Below the pieces are notes generated by a model. The model was given only the letters and a program-made list of their open reading frames with translations. It was not told where the DNA came from and searched no databases. A stretch of 64,000 nucleotides of DNA from Rhodamnia argentea (Eukaryota > Streptophyta > Magnoliopsida > Myrtales > Myrtaceae): contig NC_063157.1 in the NCBI RefSeq assembly GCF_020921035.1, positions 3,906,001 to 3,970,000 on the forward strand, written 5' to 3'. Shown piece after piece: positions 4,267 through 24,552 of this stretch (its first letter is position 1; each line of letters begins with the position of its first letter). The position numbers and the translations under genes were made by a program.

Positions 4267-4473
4267 TTAAGCTGCAACAACCACAGCGACATCTTTCCTA
4301 GATCTGTTGTACTTCATGTGGCTGTTGACAAGCCAACCAGCAGCGAGAGCAGACATGAGAGAGCTCTCCTGCAAGAACAGCTCCAGCAACAATGGCTGCC
4401 AAGGCTCTCGAGTTTGAACCCGGTGGCGAATCTCTGCTTGCCCCGTCCACTCCCAATAGATTCAGACATGCTG
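4267..4473 (-). pseudogene. HMG-CoA reductase last-exon fragment
   Basis: This is homologous to the last exon of the intact HMGR gene at 22146-22394. It runs from the stop codon (TAA at 4267-4269) back to the codons for ACLNLLG and then breaks at 4473. A 2-bp deletion in a GA run (GAGAGAG here, GAGAGAGAG in the intact gene), just after GELS, shifts the frame, so the conserved catalytic His region is lost. No upstream HMGR exons are present. It is a relic left by the tandem duplication. Confidence 0.88.
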
Positions 4474-4479
4474 GCTGTG

Positions 4480-4652
4480 AAGGAAAATAAATGGACGAAT
4501 TTTTTTTCATTATTTATGAAAATATTTAGACATATATTGTTGTAGACAATAATTTTTCTTTTCATTGGCTAATTATTTAGAGCGATACGAGCGATCATTT
4601 TTAGAAAAATATTTTTCAAAGTCATTCATTTTTCGTGAAACAAATGGAGCCT
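4480..4652. mobile_element. MITE, same family as 43588-43822
   Basis: The right end reads TCATTTTTCGTGAAACAAATGGAGCC. Reversed, it matches the left end of the element at 43588, which also shows the GCGATAC and ATTTTTCAAA words. It is AT-rich with no coding capacity. The left end is unclear, and it abuts the HMGR breakpoint at 4473. Confidence 0.55.
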
Positions 4653-6119: not shown

Positions 6120-7159
6120 ATAAATGCATCCCACATAGTCTCATCCCCATAACCTAATCGGGCTTCTTCACCAACGATATAAACCAGAAAAGTCCGGGCA
6201 CTCGTGCCTACGATGAGCCAAGTTGAACAGCCCAACGTCGTCCCCCGAAAGATAGGAAAAGGGCCTCTTCGCATAGTAGATGCAATCCCCTTTATACCAG
6301 TCGAGATCGTGCGCCGAGACCGCGAATGAAGAGAAGTTGCTGAGGAAGAAAGCCGAATTGCCCAATCTTCTCACCTGCTCCCATCTCCCACATTGCTGAT
6401 CCAATCTATAGGCTCTAAAATCAGGCGTCCCGCCAAGTCTAAAGCATTCGTCCACTGCATAAAGATCACCACTTGACACAACCAAACGCTTCCAGTGGTG
6501 GCAACAACAGCTATGGTCAATTGGCATTGAGAAACTTTGAAGTCTGAAAGATGAATCGATCTGCGAAACTGACCCCGAGTTATCGACAACGCAGACTTTG
6601 CCTTTGTAAACTACAATGTCGTCATAACCGCTGCAGCCTTAATGGCTCCATACTTCCCTTACCATAATTGCCGTCTTCCATCAATGAAATAAACCAAACA
6701 CGGATCTTGATCAGTCCCTGCACAATCCGGATGCACCACTACTCTCAGCATACCTTGAACGATGCCTCTTCCAGGGCCATATTCGAGCGTGTATTCTCTA
6801 CAGATTTCAACCAATTGGAGAGAATCGAGTACCTCTGGGAACTTGGGGGGCAACCACACGATCAGCCTCCGGGAGAAGAGGCTGAGGATCCGCATGTTCC
6901 CGAGCTCCAACTCCTCCAGCTTCAGCAGCCACCACATGCGACCGGAGGCGGTTCCGTGCTCTTGCAGATGAAGAGGCCGAGCCCCGGCAAGTGAGGTATT
7001 CAGAAAGGGAATCGTGGGGCGTCACGGCGAGGCAGGGGGATCAAGGAGCGGAACGCTGCGGAACCGGAGGACATCTATGCGAGCTTGGAGTCGAGTGCAG
7101 ATCATGGAGAGAAGCTCTGGCGGGAGATCGGACCATGGACGTTTCCTGGTTCCCTCCAT
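6120..7159 (-). pseudogene. F-box/DUF295 SKIP23-like pseudogene
   Basis: It is a close paralogue of the gene at 1-803, with the same start (ATG at 7159) and the same F-box (residues 9-30). An 11-bp deletion after codon 37, found by direct comparison with copy A, shifts the frame and gives TGA at about 7022. A further TGA replaces a CAA near 7000, and another small deletion follows near 6950. Fragments of the propeller domain then appear in different frames: residues like VVHPDC in 6659-6937 and LFNLAHRRHE in 6168-6527. The 3' end is approximate. A telo-box (AAACCCTAA, 7312-7320) remains upstream. Multiple lesions make it non-functional. Confidence 0.85.
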
Positions 7160-8040
7160 GTGACCTCGCGATCGAAGATGTTGCAGGAAGAAGAAGATCT
7201 GTCACCGTCACAGATTAGAAGGGAGAGTAGCGTATGTCGGCAGAGATCAAACCGGAAGTGTGGTGGCTGGGTTTGCGAAGGGGGTTCGTGCTTCCACGTT
7301 TGGGCAAATTGAAACCCTAACTCTCTTTGAGGCGTGCAGGCATTTACTAGGTAACAATATCATCACAAATTGAACGGTCGCTATTATTTCATATTTTGAA
7401 TCAATAATACTTCACCAAATTTCTATTAGATGGTTAGAAAATCTAATCCAAATTAGGGATTTATTTCCCTACTGACGATGATTATGTCGATGGCCGGATC
7501 TCGATCATGAAATGCCGATAATGCGGGAATCGGACAGTCCAATCTAAGCTACGTAGATCCTATTCGCAGATTCGATTTGGTGCGATGCATTCTCATCAAA
7601 TAACCCTTTTTTTTCCTCATCAAATAACTTCCCCAAGTGAGTTCTGTTCTATTTTTAAGGGAATTGACTTGACCACGATTGTTTATCTACGATCATTATA
7701 ATCACCGTCACATGAGATTGACTTGTCCCCGATTGGTTACCGTAGAGGTGTCGATCGAAGATTCGTTTGTTGTTTTCATGCCGAAGTCTAAAGATAGGGA
7801 GGAATCAAAGGCAGAGGAAGCTCAACATCATCTGGAACACACTAGACAAATCTCTGAAGACAATTAAAACACTTCGAACAAAAACTGTCCAACCTCAATC
7901 AATGAGTCCATCTGGTTCTGAAGAAGATAATTCGCACTGGATCTTCAGTTAGGTTTTCAATTTCAAATCGGATCAGATTATATTTCCTAAGTTGAGCATC
8001 TGTCTTTGAGTATAAAAGCTTTTAAGTTGAGTGTTGTAAG

Positions 8041-9490
8041 TGTTGACGCCTAAATTTTGATTAATCTATTTTTTGCATAAAAATTATAAAAAATCATCTC
8101 ACATATTTATTTTTAGCGTACATTGCATTGGCATATAATCGGGCAAGCAGAACACTTAATTTAGCATGCATCTAGACTAGGCACGGGATGGAAAAATACA
8201 CCGAGAAGATTTGAAACTTCAAGGACTGTATTGCAAATACTTAAAATTTCGGGGACTGTATTGCAAATACTTGGAACTTCAGGGACCGTATTGCAAATAC
8301 CAAAAGAAGATGAAGAAGGGAAGATGATGAAGGGAAGATAATGAAAAGAAGATGAAGAAGGGAAGATGATGAAGGGAAGATAATGAAGGGAAGATGAAAA
8401 TGGAAGGTGAAGAAATGAAGATGAAGAATGGAAGATGAAAATGGAAGGTGAAGAAATGAAGATGAAGAAGAGAAGATGAAGATGGAAGGTGAAGAAATGA
8501 AGGTGAAGAACGAAGGATGAAGAACTTTGCCTATAAAAGAGAGAGCTCTTGAGAAGAGTTTTAGAAGGGGGAAGTGGAAGAGAATTGAGAGAGAGAGTAG
8601 AAGAGAATTGAGAGAGTTTTTTTAGGAAGAGTGGAAGAGAATTGAGAGAGTTTTGAGAGAGTTTTTGAGAGGAATTTTTAGAGAGGAAAAAGAGAGTTCT
8701 TGAGAAAAATCAGAAGAGAAAATTCGAGAGTGAAGAAAAGTGTTTTAGTCGAGCATCATCTTCGACGAGTCCCGACACATATTTCGCCCCTCGCAACCCA
8801 ACAACGCCATTGCTTGCCATTTTCGACGACAGCCGCGTTCTTCCAGCTCCGAGATCTTGAAGGGAACTATAACGTGTATGTGAGTAAGATTTTGTGTAAT
8901 AGAAGGTAATCCTTTCCATCTCGATCTACAAAAATGTAATCGTTTGGTGTGAACATTCGTTTGTTTATTTTAGACATGCCACGTGTTCCAAATTTTAGCA
9001 TTATTACATGTTAATTTATTTCTGTAAATACTCGTGATTGGCTGCGTTTTCTTTCTTTCTAAATCACCCATGGTGTATATCGTACAAAGTTCAATGTTTT
9101 ACATCCCCATAAAAAAGAAGAAAAAACCAAAAAAAATTGCATCTTTGAATTTCAAGTAAAATCCATCAAAATTGCCAAATCAAATATTTTTCATGAAAAT
9201 GGTACCGAAAGGGCGTTAGAGAAATCTGACGTAACCAAATCCCCGAATTCAAAATCTCCGGTTCGCGGAAATAAGATAGTTTTCTCCCGCTATTTTATTT
9301 AGGTTTCTAATCAACCTACCGAAAATGATTAGTGGCGACTCCAAATTCAAATCACATTGCATGTTAATTATTTGAACCTTAAGTTGCGATTTGGTATGGA
9401 CTTGGGAGAGTCCGAGTTAGGTTAGTTAATTAATTAACCTGATAATCCATTAGCCTGGAATTTAACCAGTTTATTTTTTAGGTCGCGACA
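8041..9490 (+). repeat. Left LTR
   Basis: It has TG...CA ends. It contains three copies of a 30-bp unit (GACTGTATTGCAAATAC at 8224, 8254 and 8284). A long purine-rich GAAGATGAAG-type stretch spans about 8300-8720. A TATA box (8532-8538) precedes the GAGAG-rich likely transcript leader. The small open frames on both strands near 8700-8919 recur identically in the right LTR and are not genes. Confidence 0.95.
8532..8538 (+). promoter_or_regulatory. LTR TATA box
   Basis: TATAAAA within GCCTATAAAAGAGAG, about 490 bp into the LTR. It is the likely Pol II core promoter of the element, and the right LTR has the same motif at 20657-20663. Confidence 0.6.
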
Positions 9491-9493
9491 GCT

Positions 9494-9510
9494 TGGCGAC
9501 TCCATTGGGG
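9494..9510 (+). other. Primer binding site (tRNA-Arg type)
   Basis: TGGCGACTCCATTGGGG lies 3 bp after the left LTR. It is complementary, with one mismatch, to the 3' end of a plant tRNA-Arg (UCG) ending ...CCCCAGTGGAGTCG-CCA. A tRNA-Arg primer is typical of Ogre/Tat elements. Confidence 0.75.
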
Positions 9511-10829
9511 ACCCAAAGAGGACTTAGGCCAGATAATTTCATGAAAAAGGAATCACTTGATTTGGCAAACTTTGGTTGAATTCTCATTCTTAGGTGTTAA
9601 ATGTTTTTGCAGATTGGGAGTTATAAGGGGAGGAGTGATTGGCTAACCCTTTGTTTTGCAGGCTTGGTGAATTGGAATTGTGATTTAACTTTTGAATCAT
9701 TGAAGCGGTGTTTGCTTTTAATTGTTGTGCATGATTTATCGTCTTTGCACTACATTGCACACAACCCGTGACCGAACCCGGGTCACACTAATAGTTTTAA
9801 GATGGTATTTAGATGGTCCTTTAACCTTGGCGGTAAGGCTTCGCTAAAGGTTATCCCATCCGGATCCCGAAATTTTTTTCTAAAAATGGCTCAAGGGTCG
9901 TTCTTATGCACGTGAGGCTACGATGCATGAGAATTGCCCTTGTCGACCGAACCAAGCCGAAGTGATTGGACCCGACTAGTCATGACTATTGTACGCGAGG
10001 TTGCGACTAGTCATGATGACTGTGCGCGAGGCTGCGACATGTCGTTTCGTTCATCATTTCACTTTGCAAAAGCCTTTTGGATAGATAGAATAAGATTTAA
10101 ACTCACAATTCATGCGCATGTCTTTGTGATTGGCATTTTCTTCGTATGAGAGGTAATTTCTTGTCTCTTGTACCATGTTATCTCATTTTTATTTTGGGCG
10201 GGTCCATGGTTTAGGTTGATTGTTTAGAAGTTTCATTGTCTTATTTCCAATTTCGCACTTTGCTTCCGTAGCTTTTACAATTTCATCAGTTGTCCTCAAT
10301 TCTGATTTGGCTTATTCCTGTTGTGCGATTTTTACTAAATTCTACGATCGAGCTTTGAGTAAGTGCCAAACACGAAAGTTGTAGACCTATGTTTCAACTA
10401 ATATCTTGCAAAATTTCAGAATTAAATTCATAATTTAAGATGGCCCTTCGTTTTTTCAACAACATGCGGTTATAACAGTTTTCTGAACGTGATTTTTTTG
10501 GAAAGACACATTAAACTGATTTGATCCGTGCATTTCTAGTCTGATTGGCCAACATAAAAGTTGTTCATCATCTTCTCAACTACAAGCTCGTAAAATTTGG
10601 ACATGTTTTGATCAACGTACGAATTAATACGAATTTTTTCGTAAAAGCGGACAAACTGAAAATTACATGTTTCAATCCTTTGGTCATAATCACTTTGTTC
10701 ATTTGAGTCTAGAGGGATGCCATGGGCCGGCTCGCTATTCTTGCTCCCTGTACTAATTTTGGGTTTGTTACTGTGTACAGGTAATTTATCACGGATCCTC
10801 CACATATTACTCGATCGGTCGCAAAGAGG
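9511..10829 (+). other. Retrotransposon 5' leader, untranslated
   Basis: No long frame is present. Two copies of a roughly 33-bp unit (GACTAGTCATGA...GCGAGGCTGCGAC) lie at about 9974-10040. A long leader before gag is usual for this lineage. Confidence 0.6.
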
Positions 10830-11094
10830 ATGGCCGACATTAACGATGCCGTTAGTGCTGCCCTAGACGAGAAACTTGGCTCCTTAATCGAGCGCTTTGA
10901 AGGGATGATGTCCCGAAAGATGAAAGAAATGATGGCCGCCTTCACCGCCAAATTTCAATCATCCGCCGCCAGCCCGCCGCTTCCTGCTCTAGTTCCCCCT
11001 ACGGACAACTTCGGTCACGGTGTCTAGGAGAAGTTCAAGATGCCCGACTTCGAGAAGTATGATGGGACTTCCAACCCGGTTCAGCATGTCCGAA
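10830..11094 (+). pseudogene. gag N-terminal remnant
   Basis: The frame starts at ATG 10830 (MADINDAVSAALDEKL). It contains the Tat-type Gag stretch EKFKMPDFEKYDGTSNP, with an in-frame TAG at 11025-11027 just before it. After QHVR the sequence passes straight into the integrase zinc-finger words CHKC. The bulk of gag and all of PR, RT and RNase H are therefore deleted, with the junction near 11094. Confidence 0.75.
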
Positions 11095-12025
11095 GCTGTC
11101 ACAAATGTCGATTCATGGTAACAAGATTAATGTCCCTCCAAACGAGTTGCATCGATTATCTGAACCATGGCCGTTTTCTATGTGGGGCATTGATGCTATC
11201 GGCCCTATCAACCCTAAAGCATCCAATGGCCATCGATTCATCTTGGTGGCGATTGACTATTTCTCCAAATGGATCGAAGCCGCATCCTATTTAGCGGTCA
11301 CGGCACGAAATATCGTGAATTTTATCCGCCGGGATATCATTACTCGATACGGTTCACCTGAAGCTATAATCACCGACAATGGCTCGAACTTAAACAACAA
11401 GCTAATGGACGAATTGTTCAAGATCAAGCATCCGAACTCTTCCCTATATCGTCCTCGGATGAATGGAGCAAGAGAAGCCGCCAATAAGAACATCAAGAAA
11501 ATCTTAGCGAAGACGGCTGAAAATTATCGCGATTGGCATGAGAGGTTGCCATTTGCACTTATGGCGTATCGGACCTCGATCCGGACATCTACTGGGGCAA
11601 CCCCGTATTCTCTTGTATATGGAATTGAGGCTGTTCTACCGGTTGAAGTGGAAATTCCTTCCTTACGTATACTGTCTCAAGCTATGCTGACGGAAGCTGA
11701 ATGGATCCAGCAGAGGGCGAGCCAATTGAATCTGATCGATGAAAAGAGACTTAAGGTTATATGTCATGGCCGGTGTTATCAGCAGAGGGTTGCTAATTCA
11801 TTCAACAAAAAAGTTCGGCCTCGATATTTTCGGATCAATAACCTGGTCTTGCGAAAATTGTTGCCAATGGTCCCACTCCTAGAAGGGAAGTTCGCTCCAA
11901 ACTATGGTGGTCCATATATAGTAAAGAAGGTGCTCCCTGGTGGTGCTTTAATTCTAGCCGAGATGGATGGTCGTGTCTTTACCAATCCAGTCAATTCTGA
12001 TGCTGTAAAAAAATATTATACTTGA
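11094..12025 (+). pseudogene. Integrase (Ty3/gypsy), fused to gag stub
   Basis: The CHKC of the HHCC zinc finger lies in the gag frame, and the remainder (from about 11105) lies one frame away, so a single-base deletion separates them. From there a 306-codon frame covers the catalytic core: Asp in MWGIDAIGP, Asp in IITDNGS, and Glu in NGAREAANK. It continues to the C-terminal domain ending LAEMDGRVFTNP...VKKYYT, which is typical of Tat elements. The second Asp and the Glu are separated by 32 residues instead of 35, so about three residues are missing. The enzyme is probably inactive. Confidence 0.88.
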
Positions 12026-12410
12026 TTTACTCTCATGTTTTCATAATCGAGTTATAATATTAAGACAGATTCGCGAGTTGTTCACATTCGGGCATTCGTT
12101 TGTTGAGAGATTATTTCAAATGGGGGTTTCTCTGGCCCAATTGAATTGATCATCGGGAGCGTGAGATTTACATATCCACAAAGTAAAGGGGTTATCTTGC
12201 AAAAAAATATGACGACCAAGATAAAATCCGTCAGCACATGGAAGAAGGAATAATGCGAAAGCGAAATGCAAATCGGTAAAAACTTGCATTTATTCCATCC
12301 ATCGGGAAACCTTACAAACAGATCATCGGGGTGGGAACGTAAAGCCAAACCGAGCCCTAATGAGCATCACAAAGGAGTTTAACCGACTCTCCATACGGTT
12401 GATGCTCCGC
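12026..12410 (+). other. Spacer between integrase and antisense ORF
   Basis: No coding signal I can support. A small minus-strand frame at 12082-12348 has no recognisable features. Confidence 0.4.
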
Positions 12411-13052
12411 CTACACCGATCGCTTCGAGAATCGAGATCCGCCACTTAAAGAGGAGGAGCTCACATTTCTCTTTAAGCTTGGCCACCCCTGTCCTCGTGA
12501 TACTCGGCGTGATTCCAAGTCATGGATCGGCATTCTCCCGCGGGCTATATCCAGGGTCGGATCGTCCAGCCTTTCTTCCAGCCATGAGCATTGAAATTTC
12601 AAAACAATATCGAGCGGATCGCGCTCGAAGATGGTCCGGGACATGGCCAAGCGTTCCACCAAGTTCCCCCTCTCACGAATCAGCAGTGAGACTTGATCAT
12701 TACCGTAGTCAAGGGCCTTCTTATAATTGTCGGCTACAAGATCGGCCAACATCAAGTTATCCGACCGATCCCGATAGCGTGCCCTCACAAGATAGGCCAA
12801 AGTAACATCTTGATAAGCATGATTGTAAGCCTCCGGGAAGTTAGTGAAGAGGGTAGGGAAGATCCTATATTCCTCTTCTAACTTGGTACCTTGAATAGAA
12901 ACGGTGTCCATATCCGTAAACATGAGACGGATTTCGGTTTCGACCTCCGGATGGTTGGCTATATAAGAGTAGCCCTGGCCTAAGAGATTATAAAGTTTCT
13001 CCCATTTGGCCAAAACTTCAGCCGAGAAGATGCGTGCGGGGAGGGAGGCCAT
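12411..13052 (-). CDS. Antisense ORF of Tat-type retrotransposon
   Basis: A 213-codon frame runs opposite to gag-pol, from ATG 13052 to a stop at 12411. The protein is soluble-looking, mixed-charge and probably helical, with an MASLPARIFSAEVLAKWEKL start and a Ser/Arg-rich tail (LKRNVSSSSLSGGSRFSKR). I recognise no domain. Extra antisense ORFs downstream of pol are a known trait of several Tat-lineage elements (for example gene 23 in Grande), which supports a real element gene rather than chance. Its function is unknown. It sits between the integrase and the captured HD-ZIP segment. Confidence 0.55.
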   Translation of the reverse strand: MASLPARIFSAEVLAKWEKLYNLLGQGYSYIANHPEVETEIRLMFTDMDTVSIQGTKLEEEYRIFPTLFTNFPEAYNHAYQDVTLAYLVRARYRDRSDNLMLADLVADNYKKALDYGNDQVSLLIRERGNLVERLAMSRTIFERDPLDIVLKFQCSWLEERLDDPTLDIARGRMPIHDLESRRVSRGQGWPSLKRNVSSSSLSGGSRFSKRSV

Positions 13053-13539
13053 TGTTGCTGAAGTTGCTGAAAAAGAGTGGATGCGAAAGAGTGCTTAGAA
13101 GGTTGGAGATGAGGATATGGAAGCGATAATCGTCTCGGCGTTAAATCCTAATTTAAAGGACAGAAAAAGTCATAGCAATAATTATTGTGGGGGCCGAGTT
13201 AATTATCCGGGTAAAACTACGGACGTTTCGTCCGTGAATCACGGATCTACCATCTCGAGGCTCACGAAATTCGAAAAGTTGCGAAATGACTTAAAGGTTC
13301 CGCCATATTAAAAGAGGGACAATCATACTGCAGAAAAGATTTGAGGGTCCCACCATGTTAGAAGGAAATGAAGAAGACAGAGCGGGAAACACGGGAGAAG
13401 CACCGGCTTAGTGGTTTTCATCCACGTTAAAAGGGAGGCTCCGGAACATGCATGTTTACTCGGAAGAATTTGGAGAGAGTAAGCATACGGCGGAGAGTAG
13501 AGTGAACAAAAGGCAGTAAGAAGTATTTCAATCCAACAT

Positions 13540-14135
13540 GTTTGGAGGCTACCAGCACTTACTGGAGGCAACCAACCTAGACATCCCCGAGAATGAACTG
13601 CTGAATTTCGAGGCCGGATCCAGCCGAAGGCCGTAAAACCCAACTCCCTTGGCGGTGAAGTTCAAGATCTCGATAACAAGCAACAACAATAGCAGCGAGC
13701 AGCAGCCGTAGTCAACCCCGTAAAAGAAAACATCAAATCAAAGAGCTCGAAGCTGCCTTTAAGGAGTGCCCTTACGTGAACGGGAAACGAAAAAATGAGT
13801 TGAGCCGGAAGCTAGGAATGGAGCCCTTGAAGGTCAGGTTTTGGTTTCAAAACAAGCGGGCCCGAGTGAAGGTTCGAAGTGAAAGTCATGAACTTGCGTC
13901 TCTAAAGGAAGAAAATGAAGAGCTTCGAGCAGAGATCAAGAGGTATAGGGATGCTCTTAACATCGCTATTTGCCATGTCTGCAGCAACCCCATCACCTTT
14001 GGTGGCATGTTCCTTGATGAGCCACATCTGAGCATTGAAAATGCTCATTTATCGATTCATCCTCCCGAGCAAGTTCTCGCACAATCGGATTTCGTTGGGG
14101 ATACATCCCGGAATGTCGGCCTTGCGGAGGCGTAA
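13540..14135 (+). pseudogene. Captured class IV HD-ZIP fragment (homeodomain + zipper)
   Basis: From ATG 13540 the sequence reads MFGGYQHLLEATNLDIPENE, like the native N-terminus of class IV HD-ZIP proteins (GL2/PDF2/ROC), then loses frame. A frame open from about 13705 to the TAA at 14135 gives the homeodomain (KRKHQIKELEAAFKECP ... LSRKLGMEPLKVRFWFQNKRA) with the recognition-helix core WFQNKR. It continues into the leucine-zipper loop with the family's CxxC (CHVC) and ends after HLSIENAHL. The START domain that follows in full-length members is absent. It lies in the sense of the element, without introns, suggesting capture through a spliced RNA. DNA binding could be retained, but no function can be assigned. 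Confidence 0.8.
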
Positions 14136-14515
14136 CCGATGCCCTTCGAGGGAAGTGACATGCATCACTACAATTGGAGTTTCCACGATGTCACGATCGG
14201 CCAATTCAACGATGATGAAACTACGAATCTGTAGCCTACATGAAGCTTGAGTTTTTTTTATTATGGGCTCTCAAAATATCGCTCTTTTGAGCATCACTAG
14301 CCAGCCCTTACGAATCCTTAAGAAAAGTAGGGACATGCACGAATGAATGTACTGTTTGTTACAAAGTCCCCATGTGAGACATTCTTCTTTTTACGCCTAG
14401 AGTTAATCTGGGGGCAAAGAGCGATACTATCCACGAATATCATCATGCTTAAATGCGCGAATTCCTTGTCAGATTTGGTTGAACGCCGAAAGGAAAAGCA
14501 TTAAAAGCTTTCACA

Positions 14516-14675
14516 TAGGTAGATGCAAAAAGATTCGAGGAAATAAGCGCCTCGGGAGGAAGCGAAAAGATTTGAGGAGGGAAATAACCGCCTCGTTCGT
14601 AGGTAAATGCGAAAAGATTTGAGGAGGGAAATAAGCGCCTCGTTCGTAGAGAAAGCGAAAAGATTTGAGGGCTCC
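14516..14675 (+). repeat. Short tandem repeat inside retrotransposon
   Basis: Units containing GCGAAAAGATTTGAGGAGGG...GCGCCTCGTTCGTAG start at about 14525, 14562, 14609 and 14655, with spacings of 37, 47 and 46 bp. It lies between the two captured gene segments. Confidence 0.65.
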
Positions 14676-14843
14676 TCCATATCGGAAAAGAAAAAGATGA
14701 CAGATTGAGTGAGAGATAAGAGTTATTGCGAAATGGATCCAAGGCACCAAGACCGGAAATGAGAGAAAAAGCTGTCATCTTTCGTAGAAAAAGCGAGAAC
14801 CTATATGCGAGACTAACGGATCAGAAAAGTTTATAAAGTCTCC

Positions 14844-15853
14844 ATGCACCTAATGACCACCCGAACTCGTCACGAAAGACCACCATCACTTTGTGATTTT
14901 CGGGCAAATTGTTTTGCAAGTCCGAGAACATCTAAAGCTCGGTCTCTAGTCGAAACAGCCATTTTCGGTCTACATATGGAAGGCTTTAAAAGAAAAACAC
15001 GTTCATTCCAAGCGGAAGTATGGGAACCTTCCTATCCCGAGGATCTGCGAGTCATGGCCATTGATGGCAACCCCGTTTCCCTCTCAATCCTTGTTGCTAT
15101 GCTGAGAAGTTGCATGTACGGGGTTTTTGCTTATGCGAAGGCAACGGATGCCTTAGAAGTGCTGAGGCGGTACAAAGAGGAGTTTGACATCGTCGTCACA
15201 GCCGTGGTAGGGATCGATATGGACGGTTTCGATCTCTTAAAGATAATTGATTCTGAGTTAGACATACAGGTCATCGTAGTATCGGCAAGTAATGATCGGC
15301 AGTTCATAACGAGGGCCACATTGCATGGTGCTCGAGACGTCCTACAGAAGCCGGTCTGCGTTCGAATGCTCCAAAACATTTGGCAGCATGCTGTAAGGAA
15401 GCAATTACTCGAACAAAAAAACTACGACCAAGCCGATGACGACGATTTTGTCCAAAAGAAAAGGCCCCTTTGGTCCGCCAAGCTTCATTCTATATTCATT
15501 GAGGCGGTTCGACGGCTAGGAATCAATTCAAGCACGACCAATGGTCTGTACACTGAATAATGAATATAGACGGACTCACCATGCAAAGTGTCACGAATCA
15601 CCTTCAAAGGGTTAGAGATAAGGCGAGGAAGCATGATGCAGGTTGGGACCAACACGACAGGACCAAAGTTGATTGGAAGATCAATACCGGGAAAATCTAC
15701 CGAGCAAAAGGTACTCGGCCACTTCCCAATCAAGAATACATGTCATACCAACCTTCCGCTGGTGGTTCTAGCAGCAGAGACCGGTTGATCATCCCTACAA
15801 GTTTCCGAGCAACGGCGGAAGTTCAAGCTCAAGGGGTCGATCGCTCACGGTGA
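14844..15853 (+). pseudogene. Captured type-B response regulator fragment (receiver + GARP)
   Basis: A frame at 14844-15560 encodes, from about 15035, a receiver domain (DLRVMAIDGNPVSLSILVAML ... WQHAVRKQL). This is followed by an acidic linker and the start of a GARP/Myb-like domain (KKRPLWSAKLHSIFIEAVRR). The rest of GARP (MNIDGLTMQSVTNHLQRVR) continues at 15560 in another frame. The order matches type-B ARRs of cytokinin signalling. The phospho-acceptor Asp is replaced by Ala (codon 15201-15203, in VVTAVVGIDMDGF), while the late Lys (QKPV) is kept, so it resembles a pseudo-receiver. No introns interrupt it, suggesting an RNA origin. It is probably non-functional as a full protein. Confidence 0.82.
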
Positions 15854-18800
15854 AAACAAAGTGGGAAATCCGTCGCTAGTGTTAGCAAGTAACACTACCC
15901 AATTCGAGTATCAATCGGAAGATTACTTTGATGATGAGCTCACCACATTGATCGCCCGGTTCGGAGTGAAGGACCTCCCGAGTTGTGATCCGAAGCAAGT
16001 GATTATGGATCCTTGAACAACGATCGTTGGTGTATAATCCAAGACAAAATCAGTCGATCATTGGAATGGCCAGCAAGAGAGGTGGAACCAATCTCGCATG
16101 AATACTTCTTTGATTCCATGTATAGTTCCCCTGCGTGGGATATTTTTTTTACTTTCTAGCTGTCTAGAATTTGCCTAGAGTTAAAGGGCGAATTTTCTCC
16201 TCCCTTATCAAATGCGTGAGTTCCTTGTTAAGCTAGGCCTCGTAGAAAATCAATTTGTGGACGACGCCCCTGAACGCCCGTAAAGAGAGATTCCGAATAG
16301 CCTTACTTGGGAGAATACGAGTAAAAGGCCAAGCGGACTCAAAGATGGGTAACTCCGTATCGTCCCAATTGGCTCTCAATCATTTCAAACTCGATTTAAG
16401 CTTATTTCATTCTCGACGGGAGATTGCCAACTGTTTTGAGAACAATATAGCAAAAAGCGAACCAACCGTGGACGCCAACATCACCACGGCCTAGTGGTTG
16501 GGGGAATGACAGTGGTCCGAGGCGTCCCGGGTTCGATCCCGGGATTTGGCATCAATGTACAAAGATTAATAAAAACCTTTTTGCTTCGTAGTTCAATGCC
16601 GATTGAAACTCAGCCCAGATGGTTACAAGACCGGAGAGATAACATCCCGGACATACAATCCAATCCAGATGAGTTGATCCTTTCAATTCAAAGTTCACAA
16701 GAAATTCGTACAAGGGTAAAGCGGTATCGTTTCAACTCGTTTAGAACATGAGAACGTACATTGATGCTTTCCCTTTTGATTTTTACGAGGGTCACCGCCT
16801 TTCCGGATACGGAAGTATCCCTTCTCCCCGAGAAATTAATGAAATGAGAAATTCCCGGAGCCTTTGACAATCTCATGTCTCGAACCAAATAATGAAGTTT
16901 TGCAACTCATTTGCATGAGCAGGGGCAACTCACGATCCACGCCCCTAAGAAGTTTCTTATGTGCTTGCAAATTCTATCCACCAAGATAAAAAGTTGCTGC
17001 ATTTTATATGCTCGAAAACACTCATACATTGCATAGTTTGTGCATGATTGTTCCTCATGTTTAATTTATCAACTCGAATAAGGAACATGAACTACATAAG
17101 ATACACCAAATGTATGGAATGGGGCAAGACGGGATGATGAAAGGCAATCTTTTTCCAAACACGTCCCATTTTTTCAAAGCGAGTTGAACGGTGGCTAAGT
17201 TCCGCATTCCCCGAGGTAAAGAGTTTTCTCGCGAAAGGTACGTTAGCCGAAATGACAGAGGCATTCAATTCTCTATCCCAAACACTACAGGTGATCCATT
17301 GATTACCCCTTTTGAGCGGTGGTTTCATTTCTTTACCCCTGTCAAGAACCACCCCACATCGGGGTCCCAGACGAGTTAATTCCAGCGGCAACACGAGGTA
17401 AATGGTTAGAAATTTTCTTGCTTGGGACTAACATTAATCTTCGGGTGTTTCTTTGCATTTATACTCGAATTTTAATTCAAGTGCCTTAGGATGATGAAGA
17501 GCATTCACTTCTCTATCCTATACACTTCATTCTTTGCATAGCCCACTTGAGCCTCGCAAATTCATTTCTTAAACCCTTGTTGGTGATCATTTGCTCATTC
17601 CAAAGACGAAGATAGCATTTTCCCAAGGATTAGAATTGGAGATGGTCGGGTCAACGAGACAATTCCCGAATGGACTCATTTCTTGTATGCTAGATTTTTT
17701 ATGTTTACATAATTTTTCTTTGTAAATGTTTATGTTTGTTGTAATTCCTGGTTCAAAATCATGGGATTGTAAAAAAAGGAGAGGCAAACTCAGCTTAAAG
17801 GAGAAGGGCCCGCTCTCAAAAAAAAAAAAACAAAAAAAAAAGCAAAATAAAGAGATGTCGAAGGGCTCTCAAAGAAAAAGGAAAAGAAATCTTTTCTCGA
17901 AAAAAAAAGAAAAAAAAGAAAAATGAGAGTCGGGAGTAAGAAAAGCAAAGGTCGATCTCATATGAAAATTTCAAGCATAGGAAAAGCAAAGTGCCTACCA
18001 AAAGTAAGGCCAATGCACATTCATTTGTAAAGTACTTCTGAATTTTGAATGTACATTTTTGCATGTTAAGTTGTAAATTCCATGTACATGTTTGCATTGT
18101 GTCTCTTGCAAATCCTTGACGAGACACTTGTTGTGAAGAAGACTCCCCAAGAAATCGGTTTGTAAAGTGCAATTTTCAGTAGAAAACTACCATCCCTCAT
18201 TCAATGATGGTATTCTTTCTGAAGACATTTCCAAAAGACCAAGATCGGTGACTAGTCGGCGATGATCACCAACGTCAAGCCCCTTCTCATTTAATTTCGA
18301 GCCAAAACGAGCCTTTTCGTTCCTCGGTCCCCAATCCTAGCCTACGTTATAACCCTCCAAAGTCTCTTCGATTAGGGCACTTGAGTTAACGTAGAGTTAA
18401 ATGATTTTAAGCATCACTCGAAGAAGTTCGAGCAAGATTATTTCTCTCTCATTTTTGCAGGATTCTTGACTTGTAAATCCGGAGCAAATGATGAAGAAAT
18501 TCATTTCAAGCGACCTTGACTCAACTGGAGTCCCCTTTGTAAACCTTTGACCTAGCTCTCATTACGGTCCTAATCAAGACCTCCGGATCGACTCGGTCGT
18601 ATCAATTGCGAGATTACTTGGATCCTTGTCGAATGCGATGATGGAAAGATTGAGTGATTTCTCTTGAATCCTGCAGACGGGATAAATAGCTTTTCTCGAG
18701 AGTGAGAGAAAGCCCTTTCGGACTGAAGTCCCCCATTCAGCTCACATTCGAGGTATTCGTAATGTGAGAACCTCCCTGGACAAAATTGGTAATGCAAACT

Positions 18801-19194
18801 TGACAGAATGGTTATGCATGAACCATAGTATGAGTGATTGCATTATACTCATTGTTGAATATGTTTGTGTGTGTTACCTCCGACATTCTATGATAGGTAA
18901 TACATTCCCGATGTTCGAGTTCCCTCCCAAGGTCTCGAAATTCATCCAAGGATTATTGAATGAGCAAGTTTTGTTGGCAAATGCCTACCAGGTACGATAC
19001 AAGCAATCGCTTCGTTCCTTGATTAATCGTTTGGAGAACCCGGGTAAGTTTTCGAACCCCTTTTCAAATTAACAACTCTTCTCATGATAGTTGTTATGAT
19101 TCAATTCGAGCAATATGCCCCTTTTGTACTTATCGATTCCATTCGATGGTGCTCCTATCAAATATTGTTCAATTCATGCAATATGCCTCTTACG
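15854..19194 (+). other. Retrotransposon 3' non-coding region
   Basis: I see no convincing gene. It contains a tRNA-like piece (16474-16550) and an A-rich run (about 17817-17925). Short frames on both strands (for example 17092-17394 minus) have no recognisable domain. Long non-coding 3' regions are usual for Tat elements. Confidence 0.55.
16474..16550 (+). ncRNA. tRNA-like / SINE-head remnant
   Basis: The 77 nt have tRNA-like ends (GCCAA pairing with TTGGC). An A-box-like GGCCTAGTGGTTGG lies at about 16488-16501. A perfect T arm (CCGGG-TTCGATC-CCGGG) contains the B box GGTTCGATCCC. The anticodon arm cannot be folded cleanly and two acceptor pairs are lost, so it is not a working tRNA gene. 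A tRNA-derived SINE head inserted in the retrotransposon is the best alternative. Confidence 0.5.
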
Positions 19195-19830
19195 TCAAGT
19201 CGTGTAGACATATGCACTGGCGATCTTGACATCTTATCAAATCATAACGACGTAGCTCTTATGGTTTCAATCTCGGGACGTGAAGACATATGCACCGGCG
19301 ATTTTGACATCTTATCAAATCATAACGACGTAACTCTTATGGTTTCAATCTCGGGACGTGAAGACATATGCCTGGCGATCTTGACATCTTATCAAATCAT
19401 AACGACGTAGCTCTTATGGTTTCAATCTCGGGACGTGAAGACATATGCACCGGCGATCTTGACATCTCTTCAAATCATAACGACGTAGCTCTTATGATTT
19501 CGAGTATCGGATCACGAAGACGTATGCACCGGTGATCTTGACCTTTAGTCGGCTCATAATGACATAGCTCTTATGATTTTCGGCTCCTTTATCAAATCAT
19601 GAAGATATAAGCACCCATATTTTTTATCCAAACCAAATCATAACGACGTAGCTCTTATGATTTTGGTTCCCCCTTTATCGAATCGTGAAGACATATGCCT
19701 TTGGCGATTTCGACATTTAATCAACTCACAACGACGTAGCTCTTGTGAACTTGATCCCACTTCTTTCGACTCACAACGACGTAGCTCTTGTGATCTCAAA
19801 CGACACACATATCTTGCGCTGTCTTGCATT
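19195..19830 (+). repeat. 78-bp tandem repeat array near 3' LTR
   Basis: Units containing GACATATGCACCGGCGATC ... CATAACGACGTAGCTCTTATG start at 19207, 19285, 19363, 19440 and 19519, with spacings of 77-79 bp. Decayed copies continue to about 19830. Tandem repeats between pol and the 3' LTR are characteristic of Tat-lineage elements and can seed satellite DNA. Confidence 0.88.
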
Positions 19831-20149
19831 AGGGAGAAGTCTCGATAACGAGATAGGCCAAATACCTTAAAATCCTTGCATCCGCAAAAAGAAGCTTGGA
19901 AATTAAGAGAACCATTAGCTTACGAGAAATTTGGTAAAACAGGTATTCTTGTATGCGATCCATGTGCAGTTTCTCTAACATGAAAAAGGGAAATTATGAC
20001 ACGTGTTATTTACGGTCTTGCATATCATGCATCACTTCATTAAATAAAAAATGGGATTAAAACTCCCGCCAAAAAGTTCATCCATAATTTGCACTGTCAA
20101 AATTTAGGATTCAATTTTGTCTTTGAGCGGAACCTCTACGAGCCTCCAC

Positions 20150-20164
20150 TCAAAGAGGGGCAGC
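20150..20164 (+). other. Polypurine tract
   Basis: AAAGAGGGGCAGC directly precedes the right LTR. It is the expected plus-strand primer, slightly interrupted by the terminal C residues. Confidence 0.7.
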
Positions 20165-21615
20165 TGTTGACGCCTAAATTTTGATTAATCTATTTTTTGC
20201 ATAAAAATTATAAAAAATCATCTCACATATTTATTTTTAGCGTACATTGCATTGGCATATAATCGGGCAAGCAGAACACTTAATTTAGCATGCATCTAGA
20301 CTAGGCACGGGATGGAAAAATACACCGAGAAGATTTGAAACTTCAAGGACTGTATTGCAAATACTTAAAATTTCAGGGACCGTATTGCAAATACTTGGAA
20401 CTTCAGGGACCGTATGTGCAAATACCAAAAGAAGATGAAGAAGGGAAGATGATGAAGGGAAGATAATGAAAAGAAGATGAAGAAGGGAAGATGATGAAGG
20501 GAAGATAATGAAGGGAAGATGAAAATGGAAGGTGAAGAAATGAAGATGAAGAATGGAAGATGAAAATGGAAGGTGAAGAAATGAAGATGAAGAAGAGAAG
20601 ATGAAGATGGAAGGTGAAGAAATGAAGGTGAAGAACGAAGGATGAAGAACTTTGCCTATAAAAGAGAGAGCTCTTGAGAAGAGTTTTAGAAGGGGGAAGT
20701 GGAAGAGAATTGAGAGAGAGAGTAGAAGAGAATTGAGAGAGTTTTTTTAGGAAGAGTGGAAGAGAATTGAGAGAGTTTTGAGAGAGTTTTTGAGAGGAAT
20801 TTTTAGAGAGGAAAAAGAGAGTTCTTGAGAAAAATCAGAAGAGAAAATTCGAGAGTGAAGAAAAGTGTTTTAGTCGAGCATCATCTTCGACGAGTCCCGA
20901 CACATATTTCGCCCCTCGCAACCCAACAACGCCATTGCTTGCCATTTTCGACGACAGCCGCGTTCTTCCAGCTCCGAGATCTTGAAGGGAACTATAACGT
21001 GTATGTGAGTAAGATTTTGTGTAATAGAAGGTAATCCTTTCCATCTCGATCTACAAAAATGTAATCGTTTGGTGTGAACATTCGTTTGTTTATTTTAGAC
21101 ATGCCACGTGTTCCAAATTTTAGCATTATTACATGTTAATTTATTTCTGTAAATACTCGTGATTGGCTGCGTTTTCTTTCTTTCTAAATCACCCATGGTG
21201 TATATCGTACAAAGTTCAATGTTTTACATCCCCATAAAAAAGAAGAAAAAACCAAAAAAAATTGCATCTTTGAATTTCAAGTAAAATCCATCAAAATTGC
21301 CAAATCAAATATTTTTCATGAAAATGGTACCGAAAGGGCGTTAGAGAAATCTGACGTAACCAAATCCCCGAATTCAAAATCTCCGGTTCGCGGAAATAAG
21401 ATAGTTTTCTCCCGCTATTTTATTTAGGTTTCTAATCAACCTACCGAAAATGATTAGTGGCGACTCCAAATTCAAATCACATTGCATGTTAATTATTTGA
21501 ACCTTAAGTTGCGATTTGGTATGGACTTGGGAGAGTCCGAGTTAGGTTAGTTAATTAATTAACCCGATAATCCATTAGCCTGGAATTTAACCAGTTTATT
21601 TTTTAGGTCGCGACA
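20165..21615 (+). repeat. Right LTR
   Basis: It is the same sequence as 8041-9490 apart from three substitutions (two near 20375-20381, one near 21565) and a 1-bp insertion near 20415. The ends are TG...CA and the target duplication GTAAG follows at 21616-21620. Confidence 0.95.
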
Positions 21616-22145
21616 GTAAGCTTTTCACTTCCCTTTCGTAAAAGATAGCAACTTTCCTTCTTTTCGGAGGAAGTTTGTTTAGATGCGAATCAAATGATGC
21701 TCACTCTTTTGCTAACTTTTTTGATCATTTGACTATGAGAGCTCCTAGCATGATAGTCTAAAAATACTGTTATTATATTTTGCTGCACGATTTTTTAATT
21801 AATGAGTATTTTATGCAAAACACGCGATGATAATATATGGATTTACGGTCTGAAATTTTATGCGATGTTTGTATGGAATTATGTTCGTTTCGAATTATGG
21901 GAATTAGTTTGAGATTCGGTTGAGATACAGTATGTTCTCGGAATAGCTTCTTAACTTATCAAGAAAGGCATATTTTCATTGAAATGACAGCTTCAACATC
22001 TATTCAGATAAAATTATTTGTATTTAAGGGTTTCGCACCATTAGTCTGCGAAATGTCTGGTTGAGCAACTGGAAACCGGATAACGAGGTTTACAATTTTT
22101 TAGCCATAAAATAAGAGTTGAAGTCGGAATTTCGAATACGTTAAG

Positions 22146-24552
22146 CTAAGCTGCGACAACCTCAGCGAGATCTTTGCTAGATCTGTTGTACTTCATGTGG
22201 CTGTCGACGAGTTGACCAGCAGCCAGAGCAGACATGAGAGAGAGCTCTCCTGCAAGAACAGCTCCTGCAACAATGGCGGCCAAGGCCCTCGAGTTTGACC
22301 CCGGCGGCGAATCCCTGCTTGCCCCCTTCACTCCCAATAGATTCAGACATGCTGACTGGGACGCCAGCTGGGTCCCACCTCCCACCGTACCCACCTGAGT
22401 TATCGTTTGAAAAGAGAGTTAAAACTTGCCGAAAGTGAACGACGTGGGCTTTGCCCAGATAAGGAAGGGAATTGATGGAAGGTTGACTAATGGTGCAATT
22501 TAATTTAATGATTACCTCAATCGAGGGCATAGTGACAGAGACGTGGAGGTCTCTGCCATCGTTCACCGCTTCCATCATGGTGATGCAGTGAGAGCTCTCC
22601 ACATTCTGGGCGGGATCTTGCCCAGTGGCGATGAAGATCGCCGAGACCACGTTGCTGGCTTGGGCGTTGAACCCGCCGACTGCGCCGGCCACCGCCGACC
22701 CGGCCAGGTTCTTGAGCACGTTGAGCTCCGCGAGCGCCGCCACGCTGGTCTTCAACACTTTCCCCACCACTTCCTCCTTTATCACCGCCTCGCACACCAC
22801 CGACTTCCCCCGCCCCTCAATCCAGTTCACCGCCGCTGGCTTCTTATCGGTGCAGAAGTTCCCTGTGTTCAGTCGATGTACACAACATCATACCAGATCA
22901 ATTCATGTCGATAACGAGATAATTTCTCCATCGCAAGTGACTGTTTCTGTTTGGGGGTAATACCGGAAATGGCAATAACATCCATGTCGGAGAAGTCTTG
23001 TCGGAGGAACTCGAGGACGTTTTGGACGCCTTTGGAGGCCATGTTCATGCCCATGGCATCTCCAGTGCTGCAGCTAAATCTGACGTACAAGTTCTTTCCT
23101 GCAACTCCACATTTTATCCCTTGCAGTCTAGCAAATCTGCTTGACCTGCACGAAACACAAAGCTGCGTTGGCGACATATTCAACAGAAAACAGTTGCTGT
23201 AAAAACTTGTAATAGTGAATAAAACTCAACGGAGAGAGAGGCAATAAGAAAGTCATTAGGAGAAACAACGAGATTTATTCATCGGTCCATTCTCATAAGC
23301 AGAAAAAGAAAATAAAATCAAACACATCATAACACACACCTGTTGAAAACAACCGCAAGTGTCTCAAAATTCGCGGGATCCTCCAGGAACACCTTCAGCT
23401 GAGCCGCTCTCGCCGCAGTCGCGAACCTCACCACCGGAGCTCTCGTCATCCCGTCCCTCAGCACCGTCACTATGGCGCCGCCAGAGGAATAGATTGCCTT
23501 GCACCCTCTGTTCATGCTCGCCACCAAGCAGCCCTCCGTCGTAGCCATCGGCACCATGTACTCCCTCCCATCAAGCAGCAGAGGCCCGGCGATTCCCACT
23601 GGGACCTGCACGTACCCGATAGGCATCTCGCAGCACTGGCCTAGTATCGAGTCGTAGTCGAAGCCCTCAATAGGGAGGCCCTCGAGGGACTTTCCCGTGG
23701 TCCTCCGGAGGGCCTCACGGCGGATCGCCACCGCCCGCTTGCAGTCACCAAGCTTGGATTCGAGAGAGTACGACGGGGTTGAGCCGGAGATGACGGAGTT
23801 GATGATGCTTTCATCGTCTTCGTTGAGAAGTGGTGGCGATGCTAGGCGAGACAGCTTCTTTGGCGATGGAGGTAATAAGGGTTTTGTAGCCTCATTAGCT
23901 TGTAAAACGAACTGTTTAAAATTAAGTCATTCTCATAAGTTAGAAACTAAAAAATACTTCAGTTCTGGAACAGCATTTTCTATACTTGTAATCGTAGATA
24001 CGAATACTAGCAAACATTATTCTAAACTCAATTTGAGCTGTATACATTTTCATATTCATGTTTCATAGGATATAATCGAACCAAAGAGGGGAAAAAATAA
24101 AAAAAACCCACGCTTTGAAATCCTGAAGCACAAGGTGTGGAACGACTATCTTTCACGACTATAAGTTCCTCCGCCGCAGCCACGTCGTCCTCGTCCACGG
24201 TCCAGGCGTCCCTCAAGCCACCGCACGACACGAAAGATGGGACGAACTTGACCCCGAAGAACCCAAGCAAGTATATGACCGAGGCGATCAGAGAGGCAAT
24301 CGCGGTGATCTCTGGGAGCGTCACGACGTGCAAAGGGGTCGAGTGCCGGATCTTGTCGCGCCAGCTGTGGAGCAAGAAGTAGGTGACGGAGAAGAAGAGA
24401 GCAAAGAATAGCCCGTTGGTGATGTAGAGAGGTACTGGGCGTGAGTCGGAGGCTTTGAGGAAGTTGTGGGGGTAGAGGAGATTGACAGCTTCGCCCGTGA
24501 CCATGGCGGAGGGTTTTCTTGCTGAAGCGGGTGGTCGCAGGCGAACGTCCAT
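22146..24552 (-). CDS. HMGR: 3-hydroxy-3-methylglutaryl-CoA reductase (HMGR)
   Basis: It makes mevalonate from HMG-CoA with NADPH and is the committed step of cytosolic isoprenoid synthesis, anchored in the ER. The exons are 24552-24112, 23911-23340, 23145-22964, 22862-22516 and 22394-22146; all junctions are GT-AG and in phase, giving 596 aa. Two membrane segments lie at residues 41-61 and 82-104. Catalytic positions are present: Glu273 (TTEGC), Asp367 (STGDAMGMN), Lys in DKKPAAVNW (405-406), Asp481 (GQDPAQN) and His580 (SHMKYNRS). The MDVRLRP start at 24552 is preferred over an ATG five codons upstream (24567), because plant HMGRs begin MDVRR. Plant HMGR genes normally have three introns; the 200-bp intron 24111-23912 inside the usual first exon is extra and must be spliced, because reading through gives a stop. 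The gene is otherwise intact. Confidence 0.93.

Follow-up and report, generated by a model that had tools for sequence, protein, structure and literature searches.

Extra open reading frames (ORFs) are common in retrotransposons of the Tat clade, and those of plant LTR elements mostly lack recognizable domains, so that their roles are guessed. A described system close in layout to the element analyzed here is Retand (maize Grande, Silene Retand). According to the accessible part of the source, Retand elements are likewise Tat Ty3/gypsy elements with a long region between pol and the 3′ LTR, an antisense ORF, tandem repeats, and non-autonomous recent copies (PMC11963269). The same part of that source records that, in the 63 Retand clusters surveyed, none of the sense post-pol ORFs of ≥600 bp encoded a known domain, and that the antisense ORF has the TRP28 domain in 97% of clusters (PMC11963269). 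The present family departs from this pattern in having two sense post-pol ORFs with known domains and an antisense ORF without a TRP28 match.

Host-type domains have been found in other plant elements. A screen of 121 angiosperm genomes reported PMD, G-patch, AIR1, LONELY GUY-type, B3, ArgoL2, AlkB, and other domains, and the accessible portion of its main text mentions neither homeobox nor receiver (PMC9289625). The AlkB (2-ODD) ORF of Phalaenopsis Tat elements is, as in the present case, a host-type functional ORF fixed in a Tat-clade family; it encodes an RNA demethylase, the only extra domain, whereas our family carries two DNA-binding regulators (PMC9289625). Citrus elements in which a YgdH (LONELY GUY-type) domain is present offer a suggestive parallel as carriers of a cytokinin-related gene, although the domain is of an enzyme type rather than a transcription factor pair (PMC9289625). 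Aegilops tauschii LTR elements with B3 also place a plant transcription-factor DNA-binding domain inside a Gypsy element, in that case a single domain of another family (PMC9289625). Maize Bs1 and those rice and sorghum LTR elements that capture genes transduce pieces of host genes as well, but in the part of the source that covers them they occur in one or few copies, in contrast to the large family, including members with gag-pol, described below (PMC7264820).

Host-type domains in Tat elements are already known. The combination of a class IV homeodomain-leucine zipper (HD-ZIP IV) module with a type-B response regulator (RR) module in one element was not found in the full text of open-licence papers, in agreement with the sequence-only reading, which knew of no such element; supplementary domain lists (PMC6317226 Additional file 4, PMC9289625 Supplementary Figure 1) could hold some. 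Relative to the literature searched, the pair is new. Both extra sense ORFs belong to plant transcription factor families whose binding sites, partners, and developmental roles are known. Given that the ORFs can be identified in this way and that copies are numerous, the benefit of accessory genes to plant retrotransposons becomes directly testable. The pair also raises the possibility that plant elements manipulate host development, in effect like some animal retroviruses.

Structure of the element

The window (the whole 64,000-nucleotide stretch of DNA that was analyzed) contains a 13.6-kb Ty3/gypsy LTR element at 8041–21615 (Table 1). Both modules lie on its plus strand, without introns, between matching LTRs, as had been read from the sequence at the outset. 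The paired LTRs align over 1451 columns with 3 mismatches and 1 gap; a 5-bp target-site duplication, a primer-binding-site-like sequence, and a purine tract are all present. The nearly identical LTRs point to a recent insertion: at plant substitution rates of 0.7–1.3 × 10^-8 per site per year, its age is roughly 0.08–0.15 million years. Most of gag-pol is gone (protease, reverse transcriptase, and RNase H are absent) and a gag stub joins the integrase directly. The window copy is non-autonomous.

Table 1. Features of the element in the window, numbered from the first nucleotide of the window
Feature	Coordinates	Strand	Remarks
Left target-site duplication	8036..8040	.	GTAAG
5′ LTR	8041..9490	+	TGTTG...GACA
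Primer-binding-site-like sequence	9492..9513	+	CTTGGCGACTCCATTGGGGACC
gag remnant	10785..11081	+	approximate boundaries; ends after YDGTSNP motif, fused to integrase
Integrase remnant of pol	11082..12022	+	Pfam rve 1e-6, under curated cut-off
Antisense accessory ORF	12411..13052	-	213 aa in window copy
HD-ZIP protein, N-terminal part	13540..13635	+	frame differs from remainder in window copy
Homeodomain, zipper-loop-zipper, and next segment	13677..14132	+	
HD-ZIP protein, C-terminal tail	14133..14235	+	beyond in-frame stop in window copy
Spacer between HD and RR modules	14236..14975	+	
RR protein, receiver and GARP first half	14976..15557	+	until stop 15558-15560
RR protein, GARP second half and C-terminal region	15560..16014	+	other frames in window copy
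78-bp tandem repeat array	19201..19579	+	4.9 copies
3′ LTR	20165..21615	+	purine-rich stretch AAAGAGGGGCAGC just before
Right target-site duplication	21616..21620	.	GTAAG

Within the element, ARAGORN made no call and Rfam gave no match at E ≤ 0.1. A tRNA-like stretch at 16494–16556, called by neither program, contains GGTTCGATCC, which we take to resemble a B box.

Copy number, clade, and age of the family

Copies were sought across the same plant genome (346.7 Mb). The two-module block matches at least 39 places at the DNA level (best 40 of 368 candidates scored). The 42 matches listed comprise 37 of near full length, the window included, four that represent two places each split in two, and one covering the RR module only. 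Protein queries reached further. A PDF2 query gave at least 150 matches (best 150 of 348 candidates scored), those listed having 54–67% identity, and a receiver query gave at least 156 (best 150 of 397 candidates scored). Most of the listed receiver matches run unbroken over the receiver at 36–46% identity to ARR1, and four cellular type-B RR genes match ARR1 exon by exon at 63–79%. Combining 144 typed RR matches with 150 HD matches yielded at least 83 HD–RR pairs, a lower bound that carries no information on unpaired matches. In these pairs the HD module sits 1205–1747 bp upstream of the RR module on the same strand; among the matches listed, none had HD on the opposite strand or downstream within 2.5 kb of RR. 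Twelve further copies were chosen by their open RR frame, and 11 of them have a homeodomain upstream; the other, L035, has only the N-terminal part of the HD protein there. The HD and RR modules are therefore multicopy accessory genes rather than a one-off, which disposes of the scenario, named in the sequence-only reading, of modules missing from every other copy. The initial description of them as pieces of genes is too narrow: both are broken in the window copy, and other copies hold complete accessory ORFs.

A complete 5′ LTR is in place in 11 of 20 stretches of 10 kb; the remaining stretches mostly have a longer pol and end before the 5′ LTR. Relatives hold up to ~4.2 kb more at the gag/integrase junction. 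The longest relative examined, L022, encodes gag, reverse transcriptase, two RNases H, and integrase (RT_RNaseH_2 at 324–422, RVT_3 at 502–619, rve at 786–883) together with both modules, and L016 has a weak protease-like stretch (E=0.006), so that the gag-PR-RT-RH-INT order is recovered from relatives (gag and RT-RH-RH-INT in L022, the protease-like stretch in L016). In L016:7756-9918 (-), a G-patch domain lies behind the weak protease match. As far as the accessible part of the source goes, a second RNase H, located after the first and before the integrase, marks Tat-clade angiosperm elements such as Ogre and Retand (PMC6317226). Because L022 has this arrangement, we place the family in the Tat clade. 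As in Retand, an antisense ORF lies between pol and the 3′ LTR; TRP28 (PF04195) gave no match in that ORF at E ≤ 1 in the window copy or at E ≤ 0.1 in L016. The antisense ORF is a 257-aa open frame in many copies, and a search with it returned at least 150 matches (best 150 of 537 candidates scored), most of those listed being without an internal stop. Viral contigs scanned with the HD module and with the integrase contained no relative.

Phylogenetic trees set the element sequences apart from cellular ones with support of 100, for both the homeodomains (16 of the 19 given) and the receivers (18 of 19), the three HD and one RR sequences left out being short matches. L033 forms the deepest element branch, and the grouping of the rest without it is supported at 100 for HD and 67 for RR. 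Synonymous divergence (dS) between L016 and L033 is ~1.0 in HD and ~0.5 in RR, which argues that the HD–RR association in this family is old. Between L016 and L042, which also has both modules, HD dS is ~0.3.

Domain content of the two modules

The homeodomain is identified by Pfam PF00046 (E=5e-16), and the best solved relative of the module is PDF2, a class IV HD-ZIP protein (E=4.4e-24). A homeodomain followed by zipper-loop-zipper with CxxC, with class IV proteins as the closest kin, confirms the initial assignment. The first Cys of CxxC is kept in 31 of 32 copies; the second is absent from some (L037, L042). In the recognition helix, W48, F49, Q50, and N51 are present in 32/32 copies and R53 in 30/32. 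A full-length open HD ORF occurs in 8 of 32 copies. The window copy has its N-terminus out of frame and its tail beyond a stop, and its homeodomain is not preceded by an in-frame ATG.

HD-ZIP IV proteins form dimers by means of the zipper, and they contain a regulatory domain, START. START is absent from the ORFs scanned, and none of 24 START matches in the genome, compared by eye, falls at a listed HD place. The L016 protein aligns with the cellular gene L046 over the N-terminus, homeodomain, zipper, and CxxC loop; a second, weak alignment (E=0.004) reaches a segment further downstream in L046 that, by analogy with ATML1/PDF2, presumably lies just before the START domain.

The RR module has a receiver (PF00072, E=1e-12) and ARR1 as its best solved relative (E=2e-35), in a match that spans the receiver and, more weakly, a second stretch over the first half of GARP. 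In the open-frame relative L016, GARP is recognized by TIGR01557 (6.9e-12) and the protein consists of receiver, GARP, and a C-terminal region. The order of receiver then GARP (SHAQKYF) is that of type-B RRs and bears out the original call. Within GARP, W and H are kept in 33/33 copies, R in 32/33, and Q in 30/33. Type-B RRs become active when an Asp of the receiver is phosphorylated. This residue is found in 0 of 33 element copies (Ala in 32, Thr in one) and is kept in ARR1 and in all four cellular genes of the plant that were compared. A full-length open RR ORF is present in 12 of 32 copies (4/20 unselected, 8/12 selected); in the window copy, a stop at 15558–15560 interrupts GARP. The sequence-only reading had located both modules correctly but set their limits too narrowly: the HD protein begins near 13540 in another frame, and the RR protein extends from ~14976 to ~16014, past the end it had been given.

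Domain content and most recognition-helix residues are thus common to the element modules and the host proteins PDF2/ATML1 and ARR1, whereas START, the phospho-accepting Asp, and introns are missing from the element versions. Judged by these alignments, both modules keep the DNA-binding core and have lost the signal-sensing part. The simplest common reading is that both would bind DNA independently of signals, competing with host regulators or standing in for them constitutively.

Selection on the accessory genes

Whether the modules matter to the element bears on the most serious competing explanation, namely that they are passenger cargo: two old captures decaying in a roomy post-pol region without benefit to the element. 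In-frame stops are scarcer than expected in the HD ORF (8 observed versus 16.4; P=0.017, 32 of 33 copies, one left out of the column alignment). They are scarcer in the RR ORF as well (11 versus 28.0; P=0.0002, 33 copies), a count partly biased by the 12 copies chosen for an open RR frame, a choice in which HD played no part. The other two frames and the spacer have no such deficit (32–33 copies). In the 21 remaining copies alone, the signal is weak: shared stops number 0 versus 2.6 expected in HD (P=0.07) and 0 versus 3.7 in RR (P=0.02), and private stops 1 versus 2.7 and 6 versus 7.0, respectively; the antisense ORF and integrase show no significant stop deficit in these 21 copies either.

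Codon-based maximum likelihood gave ω = 0.82 for HD (8 open copies, CI 0.65–1.05) and 0.86 for RR (12 open copies, CI 0.75–1.00), neither different from 1, as against 0.27 for the integrase and 0.41 for the antisense ORF (10 open copies). On internal branches only, the values were 0.74 (HD) and 0.82 (RR), not significant. Constraint varies along the HD protein, with ω = 0.54 in the N-terminal part (CI 0.35–0.80) and 1.3 in the tail (0.75–2.0). Simple dN/dS on the open RR copies was 0.61–0.63 in frame, hardly under the out-of-frame 0.63–0.75; for the divergent ORFs, this calculation left out 4 of 12 HD sequences without a proper C-terminal tail. An earlier estimate of stronger constraint, made without transition bias (HD 0.53 and RR 0.45 versus 0.57–1.02 in spacer and shifted frames), was not upheld by codon maximum likelihood with kappa. 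In short, stops are depleted, but ω is not different from 1. As separate observations, constraint among the accessory genes is strongest in the antisense ORF (ω 0.41), which matches no known domain, and GARP has ω = 1.5 in the 12 open copies, with an interval from 0.90 up to the grid edge at 2.0. GARP may have evolved faster than neutral between subfamilies, through shifting binding specificity, or the value may be noise.

Among shared indels, 10/18 in HD, 4/12 in RR, and 5/18 in the spacer are multiples of three; among private ones, the counts are 3/23, 3/25, and 4/24. In the 21 copies unselected by frame, they are 6/27 in HD, 3/28 in RR, and 8/36 in the non-coding spacer. The integrase (6/38) and antisense ORF (0/20) look neutral in the same test, which therefore mostly registers post-insertion decay.

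The cargo explanation draws on the ω values near 1, on indels no more in frame than those of the spacer in the unselected copies, on the shared RR indels, and on the recent movement of the window copy with both ORFs broken. It has more difficulty with in-frame stops at half of expectation or less, with the excess of in-frame shared over private indels in HD relative to the spacer, and with modules that persist together at the HD distances of L042 and L033 from L016. The helix 3 residues FWFQNK, six in succession, are also invariant when just 21% of all HD codons are. We regard passenger cargo as a real possibility, though not a probable one. The frames thus seem to have stayed open in lineages that are active, where constraint on the amino acids is weak, and many recent copies decay.

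Origin of the modules

The element HD copies have 55–69% identity to the cellular gene L046, and the element RR copies 40–46% to L029, their nearest cellular gene. The plant's own HD-ZIP IV genes have introns inside the homeodomain-zipper region, its type-B RR genes have one inside the receiver, and no introns were found in the element HD and RR copies. Because the cellular homologues are split at places where the element copies are continuous, spliced host RNA is the likely source of both modules, as the sequence-only reading had envisaged.

That reading had left two routes side by side, two captures or one capture of a chimeric transcript, and the comparison favors the former. A single chimeric or read-through host transcript could explain why the modules, wherever both appear among the matches listed, sit next to each other in a constant order. 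Yet the two ORFs start and end separately, and the spacer of ~0.7 kb contains short repeats that recur upstream of HD; for instance, 14660–14704 resembles 13336–13381 upstream of the HD ORF with a score of 36 (best of 100 shuffles, 30), as one of ~35 pairs compared. One capture thus seems less likely, and we consider it improbable.

Among L016, L036, and the window copy, the two modules have diverged to extents that differ several-fold within one comparison (dS 0.03 in HD and 0.18 in RR between L016 and the window copy; 0.03 and 0.13 for L036). Recombination between elements may therefore have reshuffled the HD and RR modules.

Proposed role

Our working model is that the window holds a recent non-autonomous Tat copy from a family with two accessory genes, derived from spliced mRNA, that act on host sites independently of signals; we consider this about evenly poised between right and wrong. 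One protein would be a START-less HD-ZIP IV factor derived from the mRNA of a PDF2/ATML1-like gene, and the other a receiver-plus-GARP factor derived from the mRNA of a type-B response regulator gene. Made by active copies, both would enter the nucleus and bind host sites free of the usual signal control. Epidermal/meristem and cytokinin-response genes would in this way be exposed to decoys, dominant negatives, or constitutive regulators, and the altered host regulation would favor the element. Given that both genes are broken in the window copy, it would use proteins made elsewhere or need none. The early suggestion of decoy or dominant-negative regulators remains plausible for the family, with START and the phospho-accepting Asp lost, but not for the window copy, which yields no full-length regulator because both of its modules are broken. 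More speculative, and in our judgment rather doubtful, is the extension that the family keeps a two-gene cassette overriding host epidermal/meristem and cytokinin programs for germ-line spread.

The proteins might instead act on the element itself: bound to its LTR or internal promoter, they would drive its transcription or set the timing, in effect like retroviral regulators. Their placement between pol and the 3′ LTR would suit such a role, and the accessible part of one source proposes a retrovirus-like regulatory role for Retand antisense ORFs (PMC11963269). The L1 box TAAATGYA is nevertheless absent from all 12 LTRs examined, and the type-B RR motifs AGATHY and RGATY, though present, do not exceed shuffled sequence in the three LTRs tested, which makes self-regulation quite improbable even with the caveat that binding specificity may differ. 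Host genes are on this account the likelier targets under our working model, unless binding specificity has changed; an action of the two proteins on the LTR of the element itself by way of the known sites is unlikely.

Genomic surroundings

A later insertion of host genes into the element, complete with introns and promoters of their own, can be dismissed, since introns are absent and the modules hold a constant position relative to the integrase and antisense ORF in copies that keep those parts. At the locus itself, positions 1–2022 and 6409–8040 belong to a duplicated region, in which 6168–6527 matches the KIB1-4 beta-propeller. Homology of the duplicate halts exactly at the left end of the element and restarts past its right end, so the element cut one of the duplicates. 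Exons of an HMG-CoA reductase lie ~0.5 kb past the element, at 22177–23731 (-) (Pfam E=8e-42, 6e-35), and 4268–4480 repeats part of them.
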